A stretch of DNA of 64,000 nt from NCBI GenBank assembly GCA_021292105.1, contig CM037863.1:8202442-8266441 (forward strand), given 5' to 3'. A program made the position numbers and the translations under genes. This DNA comes from Anadara kagoshimensis (Eukaryota; Mollusca; Bivalvia; Arcoida; Arcidae). Every line of letters begins with the position of its first letter. Position 1 is the stretch's first letter. The notes under the pieces are model-generated. The model did not search any database. It was not told where the DNA came from and was given only the letters and a program-made list of their open reading frames with translations. This document shows positions 11,336-49,490 of this stretch, piece after piece.

Positions 11336-14300
11336 CTGAAATATCAAAATAAATAAGAGTTATTGCCCTTTCTTTTATAATAACGGTTCTTTTTTTTAAA
11401 AAGAAGTGCAGTGCTCAACCTGGCACCCTCTTGAAAAAGATGTGCCATGTTTTCAAAACTTAAGTTAATATTATAATCTAACTCAGAATGTGCTTTGATT
11501 GAAAAGATCAGTATTAAGTCAAAGAAAAGATATAGACATGAAATCAATTTGGGCAAAAATGACTTGGGGCCAATGATGCAAGGGCCTTTTCTATATTGAA
11601 CACTAACAGTGGAGTGAAATAACAGTGTTTTATGCCCCCCCCCCCCATTAAGTTTTTAGCCAGATATTGGATAGGGGAAAAAATCATGCACCAACAGACA
11701 AACGTTCTCGTACTCTACCTGAATGGAATTTAATCCATGGTTATAAGAGACACAAACATGATGGGAAACACATTTGTAATTTAACAAGTTACCAGACAAA
11801 TTGATTATATTCAACTTTGAACATAAAAACTTGATTTTACTTCCTTCTTGTTTTCCCAGGGAAAAACATATGATAATTTCTTTTCAACATTTAAACAAGA
11901 GGCCCATGGGCCTTAACGCTCACCTGTGACCTTGACCTTTGAACCCATAACCCTCATTCATATATCAAAATGATCATTAGGCCAATACCTACAATATTCT
12001 AGCATACATGCCTTTACAAATATTTATAGTTTTCAAGATAATTAACCAATTCAGTATTAATATGCACCTGTGACCTTGACCTTTGAACTCATGATCTTCA
12101 TTCATATATCAAAATTATCATTAGACCAATACCTACAATATTCTAATATGTATGCCTATACAAAAAGTTAATAGTTTTGCAGGTAATCAACTATAACAGA
12201 TATAGTTGTTCATCTTTGACCTTGACCTTTGAACCCATGACCTTGATCTATGTATCAAAATGATCGTCATGTCAATAGCTACAATTAACTGAAAATCCTA
12301 TGCCATTATCACTTGAAATGTTTAAAAAATAGCATTTTTTATCAAAGGTCAAAAACAGGGACATGACCTTGACCTTTGACCTTGACATCAATCGGAAGAA
12401 AATAGCAAGACAAGATCAACAGTGAAAACTCCATACAATTATCTTCAGCCGTTATTGAGTTATAACAATAAATGTCTCATTTTCAAAATTACATAATTTT
12501 ATGCAAAAAACGCGTAACCTATTTTTCGTTCAATTTTCATGAAAAACACAATTTTAATGTCCCCAGGTATGCTGAATCCAAATATCCAATCAAAATTTGC
12601 CTGCACCTTCTGGTTCCAGAGAAGAAGATGTTTTTGTCTTTTTGCTATTTTTAGTAACAGCGGCCATCTTGTTGGGCGTGACCAAACCCCGAACACAATT
12701 TTGAAAGGCTGTTACCCAGGCATGATAATCACTAAGTTTCAGCAAATTTGGCCTAGCAGTTTTGGAGGAGAAGATTAAAATGTAAAGTTTACACACGACA
12801 CACGAGGCACGACGGACGACGGACGACGGACGGTGATAGATTGCAATAGCTCATCTGAGCCTACGGCTCAGGTGAGCTAAAAATCACACTGATACACTTG
12901 TATACAGCTCATATAAAAATATTTCTTATTATGATCCATATTCTAATATATCGGGGACAAGTGAAGGGGAGTCACATTTTTCTTGCACCCTTTTTAAGAT
13001 TATTTTACTTATATCAAGACGGTCAGTTTTAGGTATGATGAAGAGAACTAGTTTCATATAGTACCTACTTTCACTGGCCTTTTCTCACTCTCAAGGGCTC
13101 TCTTTCACTCTTTTGTGAATGGGACCAGAGCACTTACAATTGTGAAAATAAGCATGTTACTGGCAAAAAACTGGGAAAAGGTAAAATTGATAGGAAACTC
13201 AAAAATAAAGCTGAAATTTCCAAAATTTGTAAAAATTGGCAAAGCGATTTTGAAAAAAAAACTATAAGATTTTGAGATGTGAATGGGGCAGAATATTAGC
13301 CCCAAAAAGGACCTATCATAAGAGCCCTGGTCTCTAAATTCATAGTGTCATACTTACTCTCACTAGCCTTTTCACACTCTCTGTGTCCAGAACAGGCTCT
13401 GAGATCATTTAATTGTTCATGTAGCTGTTGTAGAACACCATAATTCACATCATGTATAGCATTTTTCATCTGAAATAAGAATTTGTATGAATATTGTTAT
13501 AAAAACAGTTTATTGCACTTAGACCTTCCAAAGTTGGATTCAAACTTAGGCAGTGAGTGATACAATGTATATGATTTGACAATCAGGTCTAAAGATCAGT
13601 GGTTGGTTGGTTGAGTGTTGCTTAAGCAACAACATCGCATCAGCAATTTTGCAGCTTTTCGCAATGAAAACAGTTTTTTTATTAATCTCTATGGATTACC
13701 GGTAATCTATGAACAATTTCACATATGCATGTGAAGTGTGAGTGTGTTGTATGGTCTGCCTTGTACTAGGGCTCACTCAGGGCGACGTTAAGGTGCTAGC
13801 TCACCGAGTCAATACACCACGGACAAGCGTACCACTCCCCCAGTTCATTATACTGATTCAAGGTTAACCAGTAAAGGCCAACGGCAAGGAAAATTAACTT
13901 TCCCACATGTGGTCTGAGCGGGACTCGAATTCACAGCAGTGAGAGATTCTGGATTTGTAGACTAACGTCTTATCTATTAGGCTTTAAAGATCAGTGGATC
14001 GGTCTCCAAGACCCCTCAAAATCACTGTAAGATCTCTAAATCTCTCTTTTAGTGACCAAACCACAATTCTGAATTTGAATCCAGAATCTATCTAAAGTCT
14101 GGCATATTGTAATCAGTGGCCAAAATATGTTTTTGATATTTCTTGCCTATAGTTTTATCACTTTCTTTCATTTTAGTGACTTAACCACACCTCTGGACAT
14201 TGAATCCAGTGTTTAATCAAAGTTTAATAATCAGTGCCGCCAACTTGTTTTTAACATTTCCTGTTGTTTTTATCGTTTTCTCATTTTAGTGATTTAATTG

Positions 14301-17001
14301 TCTCTGGACATTAACATGATAAAATTCAGAGTCTGGCATATTATAATAAGTGGCCTCCAATATGCTTTTGACAATGTCTCTCTTATTTTATCACTTTCTT
14401 TCATTTTGGTGACTTAACCACACCTCTGGACATTGCATCCAGTGCTTAGCCAAAGTTTAATAATTAGTTTCCTTCATTTCTGTACTGTTTTGTCATATTT
14501 TTTGTGACTTAACCACACCTCTGGACATTAAATCCAGCATCTGACCAAAGTTAAATAGTTTTAAAATCAGTGGTCCCAATATGATTTTGAAATTTCCTGT
14601 TTTATTTGACTGTTTTATTATTTATTTTGTTCTGTTTTAGGTTCTTGTTTACATATGCTGATGCCAAATAAAAGTTTTATTGGTTACTATTCTATTTTAA
14701 CTAGAACTGTCATTAAAACATTGTCTCATGTTGGTTTACATTTGTAAAGCTGAGAAAGCTCAGAATGCAGCAGAGAACGGCAGACAGAAAGAGCTCTATA
14801 GTATTGTGAAACAACTCACAGGACAGAGCAACCATCAGGCATCAGCTGTAAAGAGCAAGGATGGGGAGCTACTGAAGAACAAGGAAGCCAGACTAAACAG
14901 ACAGAAAGAGCTCTATAGTATTGTGAAACTACTCACAGGACAGAGCAACCGTCAGGCATCAGCTGTAAAGAGCAAGGATGGGGAGCTACTGAAGAACAAG
15001 GAAGCCAGACTAAACAGACAGAAAGAGCTCTATAGTATTGTGAAACAACTCACAGGACAGAGCAACCGGCAGGCATCAGCTGTAAAGAGCAAGGATGGGG
15101 AGCTACTGAAGAACAAGGAAGCCAGACTAAACAGACAGAAAGAGCTCTATAGTATCGTGAAACAACTCACAGGACAGAGCAACCGTCAGGCATCAGCTGT
15201 AAAGAGCAAGGATGGGGAGCTACTGAAGAACAAGGAAGACAGACTAAACAGACAGAAAGAGCTCTATAGTATTGTGAAACAACTCACAGGACAGAGTAAC
15301 CGTCAGGCATCAGCTGTAAAGAGCAAGGATGGGGAGCTACTGAAGAACAAGGAACCCAGACTAAACAGACAGAAAGAGCTCTATAGTATTGTGAAACAAC
15401 TCACAGGACAGAGCAACCGTCAGGCATCAGCTGTGAAGAGCAAGGATGGGGAGCTACTGAAGAACAAGGAACCCAGACTAAACAGACAAAAAAGAACACT
15501 TTCAAGAGGTGTTGAACAGGGACAAACCAAGCACACCACCACAAGAACAAGAAATAGGAAGAGCTGGACATATCTGTTGAGGTACCAAGTGTTGGAGAAA
15601 TCAAGACTGCACTGAAAGCCCTAAAGAGCGGGAAGGCTCTGGAAGCAGACTAGATTCAGCAGAGATGCTAAAAGTAGACATAGACCAGTCCAATGAAGAA
15701 CTAAAACAGCTAATTGATCTGATATGGGAAAAAATGGAAGTGCCAAAACCATGGACAAAGGGACTCATATGCAAGATACTGAAGAAAGGAAACCTTCAAG
15801 ATTGATGCAACTGGAGAGGAGTCACCTTGCAACCAGTAGCCAGCAAAGTATTCAGCAGAATCCTGATCAACAGAATACAAACAGGAGTAGACCATTCCCT
15901 CAGGAAAGAGCAAGCTTTTGGACAATCATGAAGGCATACAGAATTCCACAGAAGCCGATACGGATGGTAAGCTCCCTGTAGGACTTCCAGTGTGCTGTGA
16001 TTTATAAGAGCGAGACCATCGACTTTTTTCCCATGATGACCGGAGTAAAACAGGGCTGCTGCATGTCAGGATTCCTGTTCCTACTAGTCATCGATTGGGT
16101 GATGAGGCAGACAGTAGAGGGTGAGAGAACTGGAATCCAATGGAACTTCACAACAATGCTGGAAGACCAAGACTTCGCAGATGACATTGCTCTTTTGTCT
16201 TCTTCAACAATGAGCCACCTCCAGTCCAAAACAACCAAGCTGGAAGACAATGCAGCATGAGTTGGACTGAAGTTGAATGCCAAGAAATGCAAGGCAATGA
16301 AATCCAACAACAAGAGCGAAGCAAGCCTGGAGGTAGGAGGGAGCAAAGTAGAACAAGTGGAGAGTTTCACATATCTTGAAGCAAATGTGACCATAGATGG
16401 CAGAGGCAGCATTGATATCAAAAAGAGACTAGGGTTAGCCTGTGCAGCTTTCAAGAGACTATACAATGTGTGGCAGTCAGGAGATATTAACAAGAAAACA
16501 AAGATCTCTCTCTTTAAGAGCTTAGTGCTATCAGTTCTCCTCTATGGTTGTGAGACATGGAAGCTGACCAGAAGTGAGGCACAAAAACTGGATGCCTTCC
16601 AAACCAAACGCCTCAGGAAAATCTACAAAACTCGATGGCAGCAACACATTACCAACAAAGCAGTCCTTAAAATGGCAGAAGTGGATTAGATCAGTTATGA
16701 AGTAAGGAGGATAAGATGGAATTGGATTGGCCATGTACTGAGGAAAGAAAAGACAGACGACTGCATTGTTGCCCTTGGGTGGACTCCTGAGGGAGAGAGA
16801 GGGAGAGCATTACCTGGAACGGATCTTTCATCATGTTGTTGTAGCTGATAAAGTTATTAACAAATTCACAGTAGAGTAGATCATGTGTCATGAAGAGAGA
16901 GAGAGAGAGAGAGCATTACCTGGAATGGGTCTTTCTTCATGTCGTGATAACTGATGAAGTTATTAACAAATTCACAGTAGAGTGGATCATGTGTTTTGGA
17001 G

Positions 17002-17051
<50 letters not shown>

Positions 17052-17131
17052 GGAGAGCATTACCTGGAATGGATCTTTCTTCATGTCATATTAGCTGATG
17101 AATGTATTAACAAATTCACAGTAGAGTGTAT

Positions 17132-17178
<47 letters not shown>

Positions 17179-17270
17179 GGAGAGCATTACCTGGAATGGA
17201 TCTTTCTTCATGCCGTATTAGCTGATGAAGTTATTAACAAATTCACAGTAGAGTAGATCATGTATCATGG

Positions 17271-17319
<49 letters not shown>

Positions 17320-17641
17320 GGAGAGCATTACCTGGAATGGATCTTTCTTCATGTCGTAATAACTGATGAAGTTATTAACAAATTCACAGTAGAGTAGATC
17401 ACGTGTCATGAAGAGAGAGAGAGAGAAGTGAGAGAGAGAGAGCATTACCTGGAATGGGTCTTTCTTTATGTCGTAATAGCTGATGATTTATTAACAAATT
17501 CACAGTAGAGTAGATCATATGTCATGAAGAGAGAGAGAGAGAGTGAGAGAGAGAGAGCATTACCTGGAATGGGTCTTTCTTTATGTTGTAATAGCTGATG
17601 AAGTTATTAACAAATTCACAGTAGAGTAGATCATATGTCAT

Positions 17642-17680
<39 letters not shown>

Positions 17681-20600
17681 ATTACCTGGAATGGGTCTTT
17701 CTTTATGTTGTAATAGCTGATGAAGTTATTAACAAATTCACAGTAGAGTAGATCATGTGTCTGGTTAATCGTCCTGATACACCAGTATGTATTATTGTTA
17801 GAGTTTGTACAATAACAAAATGGCCCATCTGAAAAATACCAAAAAAAAAGTTATAATAAAATTTACCAATCCATTAAGACCAGTGTTGTAATGCCCTTTT
17901 ACATCATATTTCAATCAAAATCAACTGCCATATCAAGGCAACCTTCTGACAGTTACAGATTTTAATTCAATAAGAAAGTGCTTGTTAGTCTGCCGAAGGT
18001 CAATGGTTTTCTTGTAGCACTACCCCCACAATACCAGATATGACCGTCTCTCTCTAAATAAACTTAATAATAGCATATAGTGGACTCATTAATTTGTGAT
18101 CCCAGATATGACTGTCTCTCTCTAAATAATCTTAATAATAATATATAGTGGACTCATTAATTTGTGATCCCAGATATGACTGTCTCTCTCTAAATAAACT
18201 TAATAATAATATATAGTGGACTCATTAATTTTTCTGGTTTCACATTTTTGTTGTTTTTGGGGTTACCATGCCATGGGCCAGAAATTAACATGCCAACAAA
18301 ATACCATTAGCATATATTTATTAGAATTGATCACTATATGAAACATTATTTATTTTCTTCATGTTCTTTGAACCATGAGAATCAGATATCAAACAAAATA
18401 AATGATTTTACAGCAGTCAACTTGATCTTTAAATGTTACCTTTTAATTAGACATGTTAATTCTCCTATTTGTTGATTTAACATAAGCATTTTGTAATCTC
18501 GAGATTTGCAATAGTAAGAGTTTTATCCCTATTTCTGGCATTATTGGCCCATTATCTATGTATGTGATTAACTACTGTGCATAAAGGCTATTTTGAACAT
18601 GGAATATTGTAAATTACATTTTAATAAAGGATTGATTGGACAAACTAACAGTGCATATTTATTTACTATTCAGAGACCTAACTAAAAATTATATTGTTGT
18701 CAATGCTGCATGTTTTGGTTAATGTCTGTATATAGAAAAAATCACATTTGTGACAGAAAATATGTATTCCAGCTATCCATTTGGGCCCCAAATTATAAAC
18801 GAATGTACCTTTTACCTGCGTGATTGAATCAAAACAATTCACGACCTACATAATTATAACCAATGAGGTACCTAATAGGAGTATTTATACTTTACCATTT
18901 TGATTTTATTGAAAAAGTGGCAATATTTATGGTATGCACACACTACTATAGACTGATTTAAAAGAAAACATATTTTTTTCAACTTCTCTGTGTTGAAATA
19001 TAATAAAAATGTTAACAAAAAGATACAAATAAAAATTTAATCGTACTAAATGCATGTTCAAAATAGCCTTTATGCACAGTAAGGTTTAGTTGATTTAAAT
19101 AGCCAGTGTTATGACAAACAAAACAATCACGAGAGCCACTAGACGCTCACCTGCAAATACTTTGCATCAACCTTGAGTTTGACATAATAACACCTATTAA
19201 AGGTTACGGTAGCAAAATTATTTTCTAAAATTTGAAAAAAGTGATCTATTGTAAAACCTAAGATAAACAAATAAACCATATATATATATAAAGCTTGACC
19301 TTGTTAAGTTGTAACAGGAGGGAGAAAAAATGCAGGGTCAGACCGGGGATTGAACCTTGGACCTCCCACACTACAGGCAAGTGCTCTGCCAGGCTAAGAC
19401 CGGGGATTGAACCTTGGACCTCCCACATTACAGGCAAGTGATCTACCAGGCTAAGACCGGGGATTGAACCTTGGACCTCCCACACTACAGGCAAGTGATC
19501 TACCAGGCTAAGACCGGGGATTGAACCTTGGACCTCCCACACTACAGGCAAGTGCTCTGCCAGGCTAAGACCGGGGATTGAACCTTGGACCTCCCACATT
19601 ACAGGCAAGTGATCTACCAGGCTAAGACCGGGGATTGAACCTTGGACCTCCCACACTACAGGCAAGTGATCTACCAGGCTAAGACCGGGGATTGAACCTT
19701 GGACCTCCCACACTACAGGCAAGTGCTCTGCCAGGCTAAGACCGGGGATTGAACCTTGGACCTCCCACATTACAGGCAAGCATCTACCAACTAAGCTAGC
19801 TGGACCACTACAACAATCGCAACAGCTAAATTGAACATTAAAAATGAATGAAAAAGCCAAACTACATTCAAACATTTAAAGCAAAAAAAGATGAAACATG
19901 GAAACTTGTTATGAGTGTTATATACATGTAAGTAAAAGCCTTTAAATGACAACATACTGTAAACATATAATTTCGTGTGTATTTATTTTCGAGGTATAGG
20001 AGTTTTAGACATATCTGCAAAGTCAATTTTTCGCGTTTTTAAAATATGCATTGTACTACAATAAGCATAATATAATTTTCACTTGGTATTAATTTTAGCA
20101 CACACGAAAATAAGCCAAAATTAATACACCACCAAAGTAAACACGTTTTTGAAATATGCATTGTACTACAATAAGCATAATATAATTTTCGCTTGATATT
20201 TATTTTAGCACAAAAGAAAAAAACGACTGCGAAAATAAGCGAAAATTTATACACCACCAAAATAAACACATTTACAGTATATGTACAGGAAAACCCAATT
20301 TCAATGTCCCTCATAAACTTTGCTTATTGCCAGACTGCATGCACTAAAAGTTACCTCTATATAAGCATGATAAGGGCCATCTACTTTTAAAAGCTAGTAA
20401 AAGTTTTATCCCAATTGCTCTTTATTTGTGTTATTTGAACCTGTAAATAAGGCTCACCAGCCCATAAAGCCACTTTTAATGGTGCCATGTGTGGCCTATA
20501 TAGACAGGGTTGACTGTATTTTAAAGTCCAAAAATGTATTTCTTCTACGGTTTATTTATCTTATATATATAAGCCTAGCATGGCTGGAGATACTTCAATT

Positions 20601-43912: not shown

Positions 43913-44870
43913 TACCCAGATAAACTCAGGCTTCCACCACCATGTCAGTACTAACTGCCTTCATATAAATATAAGAATCTTGACTGGGCATAAACCAACA
44001 TTACTCCGCTCCACTGCAATCCACTCCACTGTTTAAAGTAACTTGTATTTCTAATATACTGTGGTAAAATGGTTACCTCTAACTGCCTATATATAAATAA
44101 AAGAGTCTTAACTGGGGCATAGATTACTCCACTCCACTGCAATCCAATCCACTGGCTATACAGTTATGAATATCTATAACACACAGATAAGCTCAGGTTT
44201 CCTCCATCATGCCAGAACTGACTGCCTTCATATAAATGAAAGAAATGAAAGAATCCTGACTGGGGCATACAACAACATTACTGCACTCCACTACAATTCA
44301 ATCCACTGGCTATATAGTAACTGTTATGAATTCTCATGTTTCTATTATAGTCCCAGATAAACTCATGTTTCCTCCACCATGCCAGAAATGGCTGAAAGAA
44401 TCTGGACTGGGCATAAATCAACATTACTCCATTCTACTCCATCCCAATCTAAACCAATCCAATGGTTAGAGTAACTGTTATATGAGTTCTTGTATTTCTA
44501 TTATACCCAGATAAACTCAGGTTTTCTCCACATGCCAGAACTGATCCTCTTAATACAAATGAAAGAATTTTGACTGGAGCATACATCAGGATTACTCCAG
44601 CTCCAATCCAATCCACTGTCTATATACGTATTATTCACATTTTGTCATTTATATACCGCCATTGATTGTAACTTATTGTAATATGGGCCTGAGGCCTTTA
44701 GTCAATAAACATATATATATATTAGAGTAACTGTTAAGAATTCTCGTGTTTCTATTATACCCAGATAAACTCAGGTTTTCTCTGCCATGCTAGAACTAGC
44801 TGCCTTCATATAAATGAAAGAATATTGACTGGGGCAAAAACCAACATTACTCCATCCTATTCCACTTACT
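43913..44870 (+). repeat. ~160-bp SINE-tail units, block 2 (about 6 copies)
   Basis: CCCAGATAAACTCAGGTTTC, CTCCACCATGCCAGAACTGA, CTGCCTTCATATAAATGAAA GAATCTTGACTGGGGCATA and ATTACTCCACTCCAATCCAC TGG recur through 44,860. The final unit runs directly into the 48-bp array. Confidence 0.85.
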
Positions 44871-47800
44871 CTACTCCAATCTATGGGTTATATATCAAGG
44901 CTCTCTCTCACACTTACTCTACTCCAATCTATGGGTTATATATCAAGGCTCTCTCTTACACTTACTCTACTCCAATCTATGGGTTATATATCAAGGCTCT
45001 CCCTCACACTTACTCTACTCCAATCCATGGGTTATATATCAAGGCTCTCTCTTACACTTACTCTACTCCAATCTATGGGTTTATATCAAGGCTCTCCCTC
45101 ACACTTACTCTACTCCAATCTATGGGTTATATATCAAGGCTCTCCCTCACACTTACTCTACTCCAATCCATGGGTTATATATCAAGGCTCTCTCTCACAC
45201 TTACTCTACTCCAATCCATGGGTTATATATCAAGGCTCTCCCTCACACTTACTCTACTCCAATCCATGGGTTATATATCAAGGCTCTCCCTCACACTTAC
45301 TCTACTCCAATCCATGGGTTATATATCAAGGCTCTCTCTCACACTTACTCTACTCCAATCTATGGGTTATATATCAAGGCTCTCTCTTACACTTACTCTA
45401 CTCCAATCCATGGGTTATATATCAAGGCTCTCTCTCACACTTACTCTACTCCAATCTATGGGTTATATATCAAGGCTCTCCCTCACACTTACTCTACTCC
45501 AATCCATGGGTTATATATCAAGGCTCTCTCTTACACTTACTCTACTCCAATCTATGGGTTTATATCAAGGCTCTCTCTTACACTTACTCTACTCCAATCC
45601 ATGGGTTATATATCAAGGCTCTCTCTTACACTTACTCTACTCCAATCCATGGGTTATATATCAAGGCTCTCCCTCACACTTACTCTACTCCAATCCATGG
45701 GTTATATATCAAGGCTCTCTCTCACACTTACTCTACTCCAATCTATGGGTTATATATCAAGGCTCTCTCTTACACTTACTCTACTCCAATCTATGGGTTA
45801 TATATCAAGGCTCTCTCTTACACTTACTCTACTCCAATCTATGGGTTATATATCAAGGCTCTCTCTCACACTTACTCTACTCCAATCCATGGGTTATATA
45901 TCAAGGCTCTCTCTCACACTTACTCTACTCCAATCCATGGGTTATATATCAAGGCTCTCTCTTACACTTACTCTACTCCAATCCATGGGTTATATATCAA
46001 GGCTCTCTCTTACACTTACTCTACTCCAATCTATGGGTTATATATCAAGGCTCTCTCTCACACTTACTCTACTCCAATCCATGGGTTATATATCAAGGCT
46101 CTCTCTCACACTTACTCCACTCCAATCCATGGGTTATATATCAAGGCTCTCCCTCACACTTACTCTACTCCAATCCATGGGTTATATATCAAGGCTCTCT
46201 CTTACACTTACTCTACTCCAATCTATGGGTTATATATCAAGGCTCTCTCTCACACTTACTCTACTCCAATCTATGGGTTATATATCAAGGCTCTCCCTCA
46301 CACTTACTCTACTCCAATCCATGGGTTATATATCAAGGCTCTCTCTCACACTTACTCTACTCCAATCTATGGGTTATATATCAAGGCTCTCTCTCACACT
46401 TACTCTACTCCAATCTATGGGTTATATATCAAGGCTCTCTCTTACACTTACTCTACTCCAATCCATGGGTTATATATCAAGGCTCTCTCTTACACTTACT
46501 CTACTCCAATCCATGGGTTATATATCAAGGCTCTCTCTCACACTTACTCTACTCCAATCCATGGGTTATATATCAAGGCTCTCTCTCACACTTACTCTAC
46601 TCCAATCCATGGGTTATATATCAAGGCTCTCTCTCACACTTACTCTACTCCAATCTATGGGTTATATATCAAGGCTCTCTCTCACACTTACTCTACTCCA
46701 ATCTATGGGTTATATATCAAGGCTCTCTCTTACACTTACTCTACTCCAATCTATGGGTTTATATCAAGGCTCTCTCTTACACTTACTCTACTCCAATCTA
46801 TGGGTTATATATCAAGGCTCTCTCTTACACTTACTCTACTCCAATCTATGGGTTATATATCAAGGCTCTCTCTCACACTTACTCTACTCCAATCCATGGG
46901 TTATATATCAAGGCTCTCTCTCACACTTACTCTACTCCAATCTATGGGTTATATATCAAGGCTCTCTCTCACACTTACTCTACTCCAATCTATGGGTTAT
47001 ATATCAAGGCTCTCCCTCACACTTACTCTACTCCAATCCATGGGTTATATATCAAGGCTCTCTCTTACACTTACTCTACTCCAATCCATGGGTTATATCA
47101 AGGCTCTCTCTCACACTTACTCTACTCCAATCTATGGGTTATATATCAAGGCTCTCTCTCACACTTACTCTACTCCAATCCATGGGTTATATCAAGGCTC
47201 TCTCTTACACTTACTCTACTCCAATCCATGGGTTATATATCAAGGCTCTCCCTCACACTTACTCTACTCCAATCTATGGGTTATATATCAAGGCTCTCTC
47301 TCACACTTACTCTACTCCAATCTATGGGTTATATATCAAGGCTCTCCCTCACACTTACTCTACTCCAATCCATGGGTTATATATCAAGGCTCTCCCTCAC
47401 ACTTACTCTACTCCAATCCATGGGTTATATATCAAGGCTCTCTCTTACACTTACTCTACTCCAATCCATGGGTTATATATCAAGGCTCTCCCTCACACTT
47501 ACTCTACTCCAATCCATGGGTTATATATCAAGGCTCTCTCTACACTTACTCTACTCCAATCCATGGGTTATATATCAAGGCTCTCTCACACTTACTCTAC
47601 TCCAATCCATGGGTTATATATCAAGGCTCTCTCTCACACTTACTCTACTCCAATCTATGGGTTATATATCAAGGCTCTCTCTCACACTTACTCTACTCCA
47701 ATCCATGGGTTATATATCAAGGCTCTCTCTCACACTTACTCTACTCCAATCTATGGGTTATATATCAAGGCTCTCTTACACTTACTCTACTCCAATCTAT

Positions 47801-49490
47801 GGGTTATATATCAAGGCTCTCTCTCACACTTACTCTACTCCAATCTATGGGTTATATATCAAGGCTCTCTCTCACACTTACTCTACTCCAATCTATGGGT
47901 TATATATCAAGGCTCTCTCTACACTTACTCTACTCCAATCCATGGGTTATATATCAAGGCTCTCTCTTACACTTACTCTACTCCAATCCATGGGTTATAT
48001 ATCAAGGCTCTCTCACACTTACTCTACTCCAATCCATGGGTTATATATCAAGGCTCTCTCTCACACTTACTCTACTCCAATCCATGGGTTATATATCAAG
48101 GCTCTCTCTCACACTTACTCTACTCCAATCATGGGTTATATATCAAGGCTCTCTCACACTTACTCTACTCCAATCTATGGGTTATATATCAAGGCTCTCT
48201 CTTACACTTACTCTACTCCAATCTATGGGTTATATATCAAGGCTCTCTCTTACACTTACTCTACTCCAATCTATGGGTTATATATCAAGGCTCTCTCTTA
48301 CACTTACTCTACTCCAATCTATGGGTTATATATCAAGGCTCTCTCTCACACTTACTCTACTCCAATCCATGGGTTATATCAAGGCTCTCTCACACTTACT
48401 CTACTCCAATCTATGGGTTATATATCAAGGCTCTCTCTCACACTTACTCTACTCCAATCTATGGGTTATATATCAAGGCTCTCTACACTTACTCTACTCC
48501 AATCATGGGTTATATATCAAGGCTCTCTCTCACACTTACTCTACTCCAATCTATGGGTTATATATCAAGGCTCTCTCTCACACTTACTCTACTCCAATAT
48601 GGGTTATATATCAAGGCTCTCTCTTACACTTACTCTACTCCAATCTATGGGTTATATATCAAGGCTCTCTCTCACACTTACTCTACTCCAATCTATGGGT
48701 TATATATCAAGGCTCTCCTCACACTTACTCTACTCCAATCCATGGGTTATATCAAGGCTCTCTCTTCACACTTACTCTACTCCAATCCATGGGTTATATA
48801 TCAAGGCTCTCTCTCACACTTACTCTACTCCAATCATGGGTTATATATCAAGGCTCTCTCTCACACTTACTCTACTCCAATCCATGGGTTATATATCAAG
48901 GCTCTCTCTTACACTTACTCTACTCCAATCCATGGGTTATATATCAAGGCTCTCCTCACACTTACTCTACTCCAATCTATGGGTTATATATCAAGGCTCT
49001 CTTCACACTTACTCTACTCCAATCATGGGTTATATATCAAGGCTCTCCCTCACACTTACTCTACTCCAATCCATGGGTTATATATCAAGGCTCTCTCCTC
49101 ACACTTACTCTACTCCAATCCATGGGTTATATATCAAGGCTCTTCTTACACTTACTCTACTCCAATCCATGGGTTATATATCAAGGCTCTCCTCACACTT
49201 ACTCTACTCCAATCCATGGGTTATATATCAAGGCTCTCTACACTTACTCTACTCCAATCCATGGGTTATATATCAAGGCTCTCCCTCACACTTACTCTAC
49301 TCCAATCCATGGGTTATATATCAAGGCTCTCTCTCACACTTACTCTACTCCAATCTATGGGTTATATATCAAGGCTCTCTCTCACACTTACTCTACTCCA
49401 ATCCATGGGTTATATATCAAGGCTCTCTAGCTCTCACACTTACTCTACTCCAATCCATGGGTTATATATCAAGGCTCTCTCTCACACTTT
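44862..49490 (+). repeat. 48-bp satellite array, ~96 copies
   Basis: Unit ATCTATGGGTTATATATCAA GGCTCTCTCTCACACTTACT CTACTCCA; CTATGGG recurs every 48 bp (44,881, 44,929). Main variants are ATCTATGG/ATCCATGG and CTCTCAC/CTCTTAC/CCCTCAC; occasional 1-3 bp losses cluster after 47,500. Because 48 is divisible by three and the unit has no stop in any plus frame, three overlapping frames of 1,316-1,556 codons run through the array. No start context, codon bias or homology supports translation. Confidence 0.97.

Follow-up and report, generated by a model that had tools for sequence, protein, structure and literature searches.

Arrays of copied exon ends and splice donors behind a Sulf-like exon of Anadara kagoshimensis and at other genes of its genome

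The Sulf-like gene and its array

The window considered here is a stretch of 64,000 nt from the bivalve Anadara kagoshimensis (assembly GCA_021292105.1, contig CM037863.1, positions 8,202,442 to 8,266,441), the minus strand of which harbors a Sulf-like gene spanning ~38.8 to 13.3 kb of the window, an extent judged from open frames. Directly behind the live donor of its penultimate coding exon, seven copies of the 3' end of that exon (72-76 nt each) can be found, and similar arrays, in which an exon end, a donor and a TC tract are repeated together, recur at several other genes of the same genome. The name Sulf-like is suggested by sulfatase and DUF3740 domains, detected with Pfam on three of the seven frames scanned and all on the same strand, and by a C-terminal exon which is presumably similar to SULF1/2; a Pfam scan of the live exon itself (17686-17828) gave no match. 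This live exon (copy c0, 17686..17828, minus strand, 143 nt), which starts at 17828, displays a phase-0 donor, CAG|GTAATG, and joins in phase 0 to the last coding exon (13296..13469, minus strand), which starts at 13469, reads MKNAIHD... and has the stop at its end. The intron between them, with the array, is ~4.2 kb long.

On the minus strand, the decoy nearest to the live exon is c1 (17564..17639), which matches c0 fully across 78 aligned columns. It is followed by c2 (17449..17523), with a frame broken by an indel, c3 (17332..17407), with an intact frame, c4 (17191..17266), with a TAA in frame, c5 (17064..17135), with both a 5' deletion and a TAA in frame, c6 (16920..16994) and, most distal, c7 (16814..16889), the last two with intact frames. 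The donor is intact in all seven decoys, and CAG|GTAATGC is identical in 8/8 when the live exon end is included. Neighboring units are parted by GA/TC tracts, with copy spacings of 122, 115, 117, 141, 127, 144, and 106 bp, and the entire array, tracts included, occupies 16789..17761 according to Tandem Repeats Finder (rows scoring 352-790) and to the array listing. Being made of head-to-tail copies of one unit, it is a minisatellite or tandem repeat. The array of seven decoy exon ends with intact donors announced by the original prediction is thus confirmed by the unit search, by Tandem Repeats Finder and by the eight identical donors; regarding the unit lengths said to be multiples of three, 117 and 141 are present and 144 is likewise divisible, but there is no unit of 126.

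The exon piece of each copy starts immediately after a GA/TC tract and ends in the donor and a tract, while the acceptor and the remainder of the exon are present solely with the first copy in the transcript. With no 5' half, no acceptor and 3/7 frames broken, the copies do not form an array of mutually exclusive exons. When the 1.1 Gb assembly was searched with the Sulf exon end, scoring being limited to the best candidates, 8 matches were obtained, all within this locus. A second Sulf-like exon of the genome (C7:34,991,736), a single match, has no exon-end array within the 3 kb read.

Extension of the live exon to any of the seven decoy donors leads to the same TGA after 15 codons, and the Sulf copies are therefore not coding in the live frame of the reference sequence. 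As deduced from the lengths of the extended exon, this TGA lies at least 74 nt ahead of every decoy donor, so messages joined from decoy donors would be candidates for decay. Long open runs do exist, as had been claimed for read-through of up to 75 codons, and the longest stop-free run, 89 codons, shares the reading frame of the live exon; it is, however, found behind several stops, and the live frame closes after 15 codons. Likewise, the conserved segment that the copies were said to encode is still encoded by 4/7 of them (c1, c3, c6, and c7), whereas its frame is lost in c2, by the indel, and in c4 and c5, by a TAA.

Similar arrays at other genes

The genome was searched with patterns in which CAGGTA or AGGTA stands beside a dinucleotide tract, other kinds of arrays being invisible to them. 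With the first pattern (AGGTA, 0-12 bases, nine CT), 499 matches were obtained in forward and 1677 in reverse orientation, the latter inflated by overlapping matches, compared with 474 and 177 for the reversed-pattern control, which means no excess over control for the forward count. Two of five clusters picked by eye among the first 100 rows are coding exon ends with copies, namely a dynein heavy chain exon with one decoy (L047) and a sulfotransferase-like exon with three decoys harboring a GT (L048). The second pattern (CAGGTA ... A(TC)7) gave 132 sites versus 7 in the control; among five clusters picked by eye from the first 100 matches listed, two are coding, a GCLC-like exon with three decoys, of which two are clear and one is more diverged (L050), and an exon of an unnamed gene in which CAG|GTAAGT is found in 7/7 copies including the live one (L054). 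The third pattern (CAGGTA ... ACTCTC), with a complete listing, gave 84 sites versus 26 in the control. All 36 of its sites on contigs C1-C9 were fetched as 33 regions, 3 of which carry copies by a test of 70% over 40 nt. These arrays belong to one gene present twice, with a CAP-Gly-coding exon following (L076, L077, and L090), with three decoys each by eye, one of them with a broken donor, and to a BTAF1/Mot1-like gene. Other fetched clusters (L044, L045/L046, L049, L051, and L052/L053) show no copies of a recognizable coding exon end.

At these recurrent loci, Pfam matches were obtained to PF03074, PF18198, PF00176, and PF01302, with PF00685 slightly under the cut-off, while in PDB the matches were dynein heavy chains as well as 'helicase-like protein' chains, the latter taken here to be Mot1; the names BTAF1 and KIF13 similarly stand for presumed resemblances. 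The GCLC-like exon has no PDB match and the unnamed gene at L054 no Pfam match. L076/L077/L090, L045/L046, and L052/L053 are sets of near-identical loci, each set lying on a single contig (C1, C7, and C11) with ~0.8-1.4 Mb between its members, and their arrays differ in detail; they suggest either haplotype copies left in the assembly or segmental duplications. Further exon-end arrays may be present where CAGGTA and GA tracts cluster, at G000:C14:3130649-3131150, C12:33235357-33235736, C12:12617704-12617812, and C5:46070476-46070660.

The largest array is that of the BTAF1-like gene, where the live exon ends at C5:1,634,366 and donor units reach at least 1,612,912 (L088 and L092), i.e., over 21.5 kb with a median spacing of 77 bp. 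An alignment made from the two stretches read contains 105 full units, and a GT follows in 112/114 looser matches; by extrapolation, the total would exceed 250 copies. The intron concerned (C5:1612912-1634366) largely consists of copies of the end of the preceding exon and its donor.

Growth of the array and use of its donors

Among the Sulf copies, 16 of the 78 aligned columns vary and differences range from 0 to 11. The further a copy lies from the live exon, the more it diverges from it (rho 0.86, permutation P 0.008), and adjacent copies resemble each other more closely than they would in a shuffled order (P 0.024). At the distal edge lies a fragment resembling a long interspersed nuclear element (LINE; 15737..16802, plus strand), the 3' end of which is absent where a GA stretch is met and its homology stops. 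At least 39 other places were matched by this element, and 11/11 of the other copies read continue beyond the truncation point with shared sequence, over ~150-190 bp by eye. Since retroelement truncation usually affects the 5' end, this 3' loss points to a later exchange through GA. The window as a whole contains 21 tandem arrays with a period of at least 30 (13,784 of 64,000 bp), compared with 6 arrays (3,131 of 48,000 bp) in eight other 6-kb stretches. At the border of the array and the LINE (16783-16793, minus strand), the sequence CTCTCTCCCTCAG|GAGTCC constitutes a good-looking acceptor right behind the last decoy.

The anatomy of the array, these signals of its copy history, the stop codon and the recurrence at other genes are probably best read as the outcome of neutral, tract-driven duplication, the copies being noncoding and splicing taking place at the first donor. 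The starting point would be a GA/TC dinucleotide tract a few bases behind the donor of the exon. Through slippage or unequal exchange, a tandem duplication with one end in the tract and the other inside the exon would copy the exon end, the donor and the tract into the intron; repeated rounds would yield the seven decoys, and an exchange through GA would also delete the end of the adjoining retroelement. Splicing would most likely occur at 17686, the donor met first in the transcript and nearest to the acceptor of the exon, any use of a decoy donor leading to a truncated message. The same process would have operated at other exons of the genome, in one case to >100 copies. That the GA tract drove slippage, as the neutral possibility of the original prediction has it, or else unequal exchange is the reading best supported by the distance gradient, the LINE cut at GA and the recurrence.

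Several observations weigh against it. Testing the distances of all pairs gives a weaker result (Mantel P 0.10). All 8 Sulf copies share an unchanged donor 9-mer, the last 14 alignment columns are free of differences (P 0.028, uncorrected) and, besides the donor, a stretch of 23 columns likewise never varies (P 0.03, uncorrected). The acceptor-like context is stronger in the L054 and BTAF1-like copies than in the Sulf copies. At L054, one frame crossing the exon end, which may or may not be the true phase, runs open for 197 codons through the array, and coding use may be conceivable there. Finally, a tract is found behind CAGGTA at 84 sites versus 6 for CAGCTA (26 and 13 with the patterns reversed), whereas the hexamers themselves number 40 and 26 in 110,850 bp, and this excess beyond the hexamer ratio is unexplained by a purely neutral story. 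Regarding the six CAGCTA loci, five are without copy and one gives a match where the reference itself is mostly TC, a sample too small for a comparison of array rates. Speaking for the duplication reading instead, the GA orientation behind CAGGTA (77 sites, control 10) is about as common as TC (84), so the link is to the DNA and a role of UC at the RNA level is not needed; a UC-specific cause of the tract position was accordingly set aside.

Selection keeping or removing decoy donors left no visible sign. In the 105 BTAF1-like copies, selected by an 80% match, the G and the T of the GT each differ in 2 copies versus a mean of 1.4 per exon site. In seven units, the RNA structure at the donor is unremarkable (z-scores -1.45 to 1.62).

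Two rival readings of the splicing itself, each rather unlikely, would give the decoys a role or a means of erasure. In recursive splicing, the live donor would join a decoy CAG, the donor would be regenerated and the array removed stepwise with the mRNA unchanged, such that arrays are tolerated because each AG|GT copy erases itself. Each Sulf copy does present AG|GT with a TC tract further upstream, and known recursive sites are juxtaposed 3' and 5' splice sites around AG/GT (excerpt of PMC6110457). The L054 copies read CTTCTAAACACTTCACAG|GTAAGT with the GT in 7/7, and the BTAF1-like copies read TTAGTTCTCTACAG|GTAATAA, the pyrimidine fraction at -20..-4 being 0.65 in both. The pyrimidine-rich 3' splice site expected right upstream of AG|GT is, however, missing in Sulf, where this fraction is 0.41 and the first AG past each tract is 39-65 nt away. 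Also against recursion, the BTAF1-like donor shows no excess of conservation and the Sulf intron is only ~4.2 kb, whereas the same excerpt of PMC6110457 describes recursion as apparently limited to very long fly introns. Recursion would be better founded for L054 and the BTAF1-like gene than for Sulf.

Comparably improbable is a brake by donor competition, in which some transcripts would use a decoy donor, gain the TGA and be degraded, the array length tuning Sulf output. It is favored by the eight identical donors, which rank 2-9 among the 240 GT sites of the intron by U1 pairing energy, by the stop at least 74 nt before the decoy donors and by human IFI6, in which downstream repeat units act as donors (excerpt of PMC4526556). 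Against it, the live donor is first in line and selection on the decoys shows no sign. Circular products, which the original prediction had listed next to donor competition, may also be conceivable.

An assembly artefact is very improbable: long GA tracts are generally difficult to assemble, but the copies differ at 0-11 of 78 columns and unrelated loci share the arrangement with different sequences. The least credible proposal, in the original prediction, was that intron retention adds repeated C-terminal segments; the frame is kept locally in 4/7 decoys, but the live frame ends at one TGA, 15 codons on, whichever decoy is reached, which refutes the proposal for Sulf in the reference sequence. 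The decoys were also considered as a fossil of an older exon, with D-M in c3, c5, and c6 versus N-I in the live exon, and D is found at the first site of this position in 6 of 7 different PDB sulfatases with alignments shown. The idea was dropped, as the second Sulf-like exon has N (SFYNLDTDPYQ) and so does the most distal decoy. When genome contigs were scanned for an outgroup, a single locus was obtained, which has YDL at the motif; either N or D may be ancestral at this site, and the distance gradient alone was retained.

Two other repeats can be found in the window. At 14781-15492, a 117-bp unit (39 codons) is repeated six times in frame within the LINE-like open reading frame; it was not found in the 11 other copies of the LINE that were read, which cease to match the window before this 5' region. 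At 44863-49489, a 4.6-kb array comprises ~97 copies of a 48-bp unit, and each forward frame contains an open stretch of >1,500 codons.

Comparison with known systems

In searches of the open-licence PubMed Central literature, no report was found of such arrays across genes of one genome, and their recurrence and scale within a single genome are new to us. It may tentatively be proposed, with considerable doubt, that they form a class of self-expanding 'exon-end satellites' with a GA/TC tract behind the donor, whose copies are tolerated by being ignored for the first donor or erased by recursion, so that splice sites amplify without harming the message. How one of several donors of equal strength is chosen has usually been studied with constructed reporters. 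This genome offers series of near-identical donors behind single exons, with 2 (dynein), 3 (GCLC), 4 (sulfotransferase), 7 (L054), 8 (Sulf), and >100 (BTAF1-like) members, whose RNA could directly reveal the influence of position and copy number. In addition, it illustrates the multiplication of coding sequence into introns beside a simple microsatellite, by which cryptic exons could arise and introns grow.

Recursive splice sites have been described in long introns of Drosophila (excerpts of PMC6110457; PMC8605326). They share with the Sulf copies an AG|GT juxtaposition preceded at some point by a pyrimidine tract; the Sulf sites, as candidate recursive sites, differ by a weak 3' splice site context and a short intron. 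New introns are also known to arise when an exon segment containing AGGT is tandemly duplicated in the genome (review PMC3443670; potato case PMC4974935). Here too an AG|GT segment is duplicated, with donor- and acceptor-like sites in series, but the many added copies lengthen an intron that already exists, and a new one need not be invoked.

Of the known systems, the nearest is the donor minisatellite of human IFI6 (6-16), which is said, in the title of Turri et al. 1995, to provide multiple splice donors. Its downstream repeat units serve as donors, as stated in the excerpt of PMC4526556. Both IFI6 and the Sulf array are tandem repeats at an exon end that multiply a splice donor in the intron, with a donor-like site (CAG|GTAATG) at the exon end in 8/8 Sulf units. 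The repeat donors of IFI6 are reported as used, whereas the Sulf array is known here from DNA. Unlike the IFI6 unit, which is short (12 bp), that of Sulf combines ~75 nt of coding exon with a dinucleotide tract, and arrays of the Sulf type, in contrast to IFI6, recur across genes.

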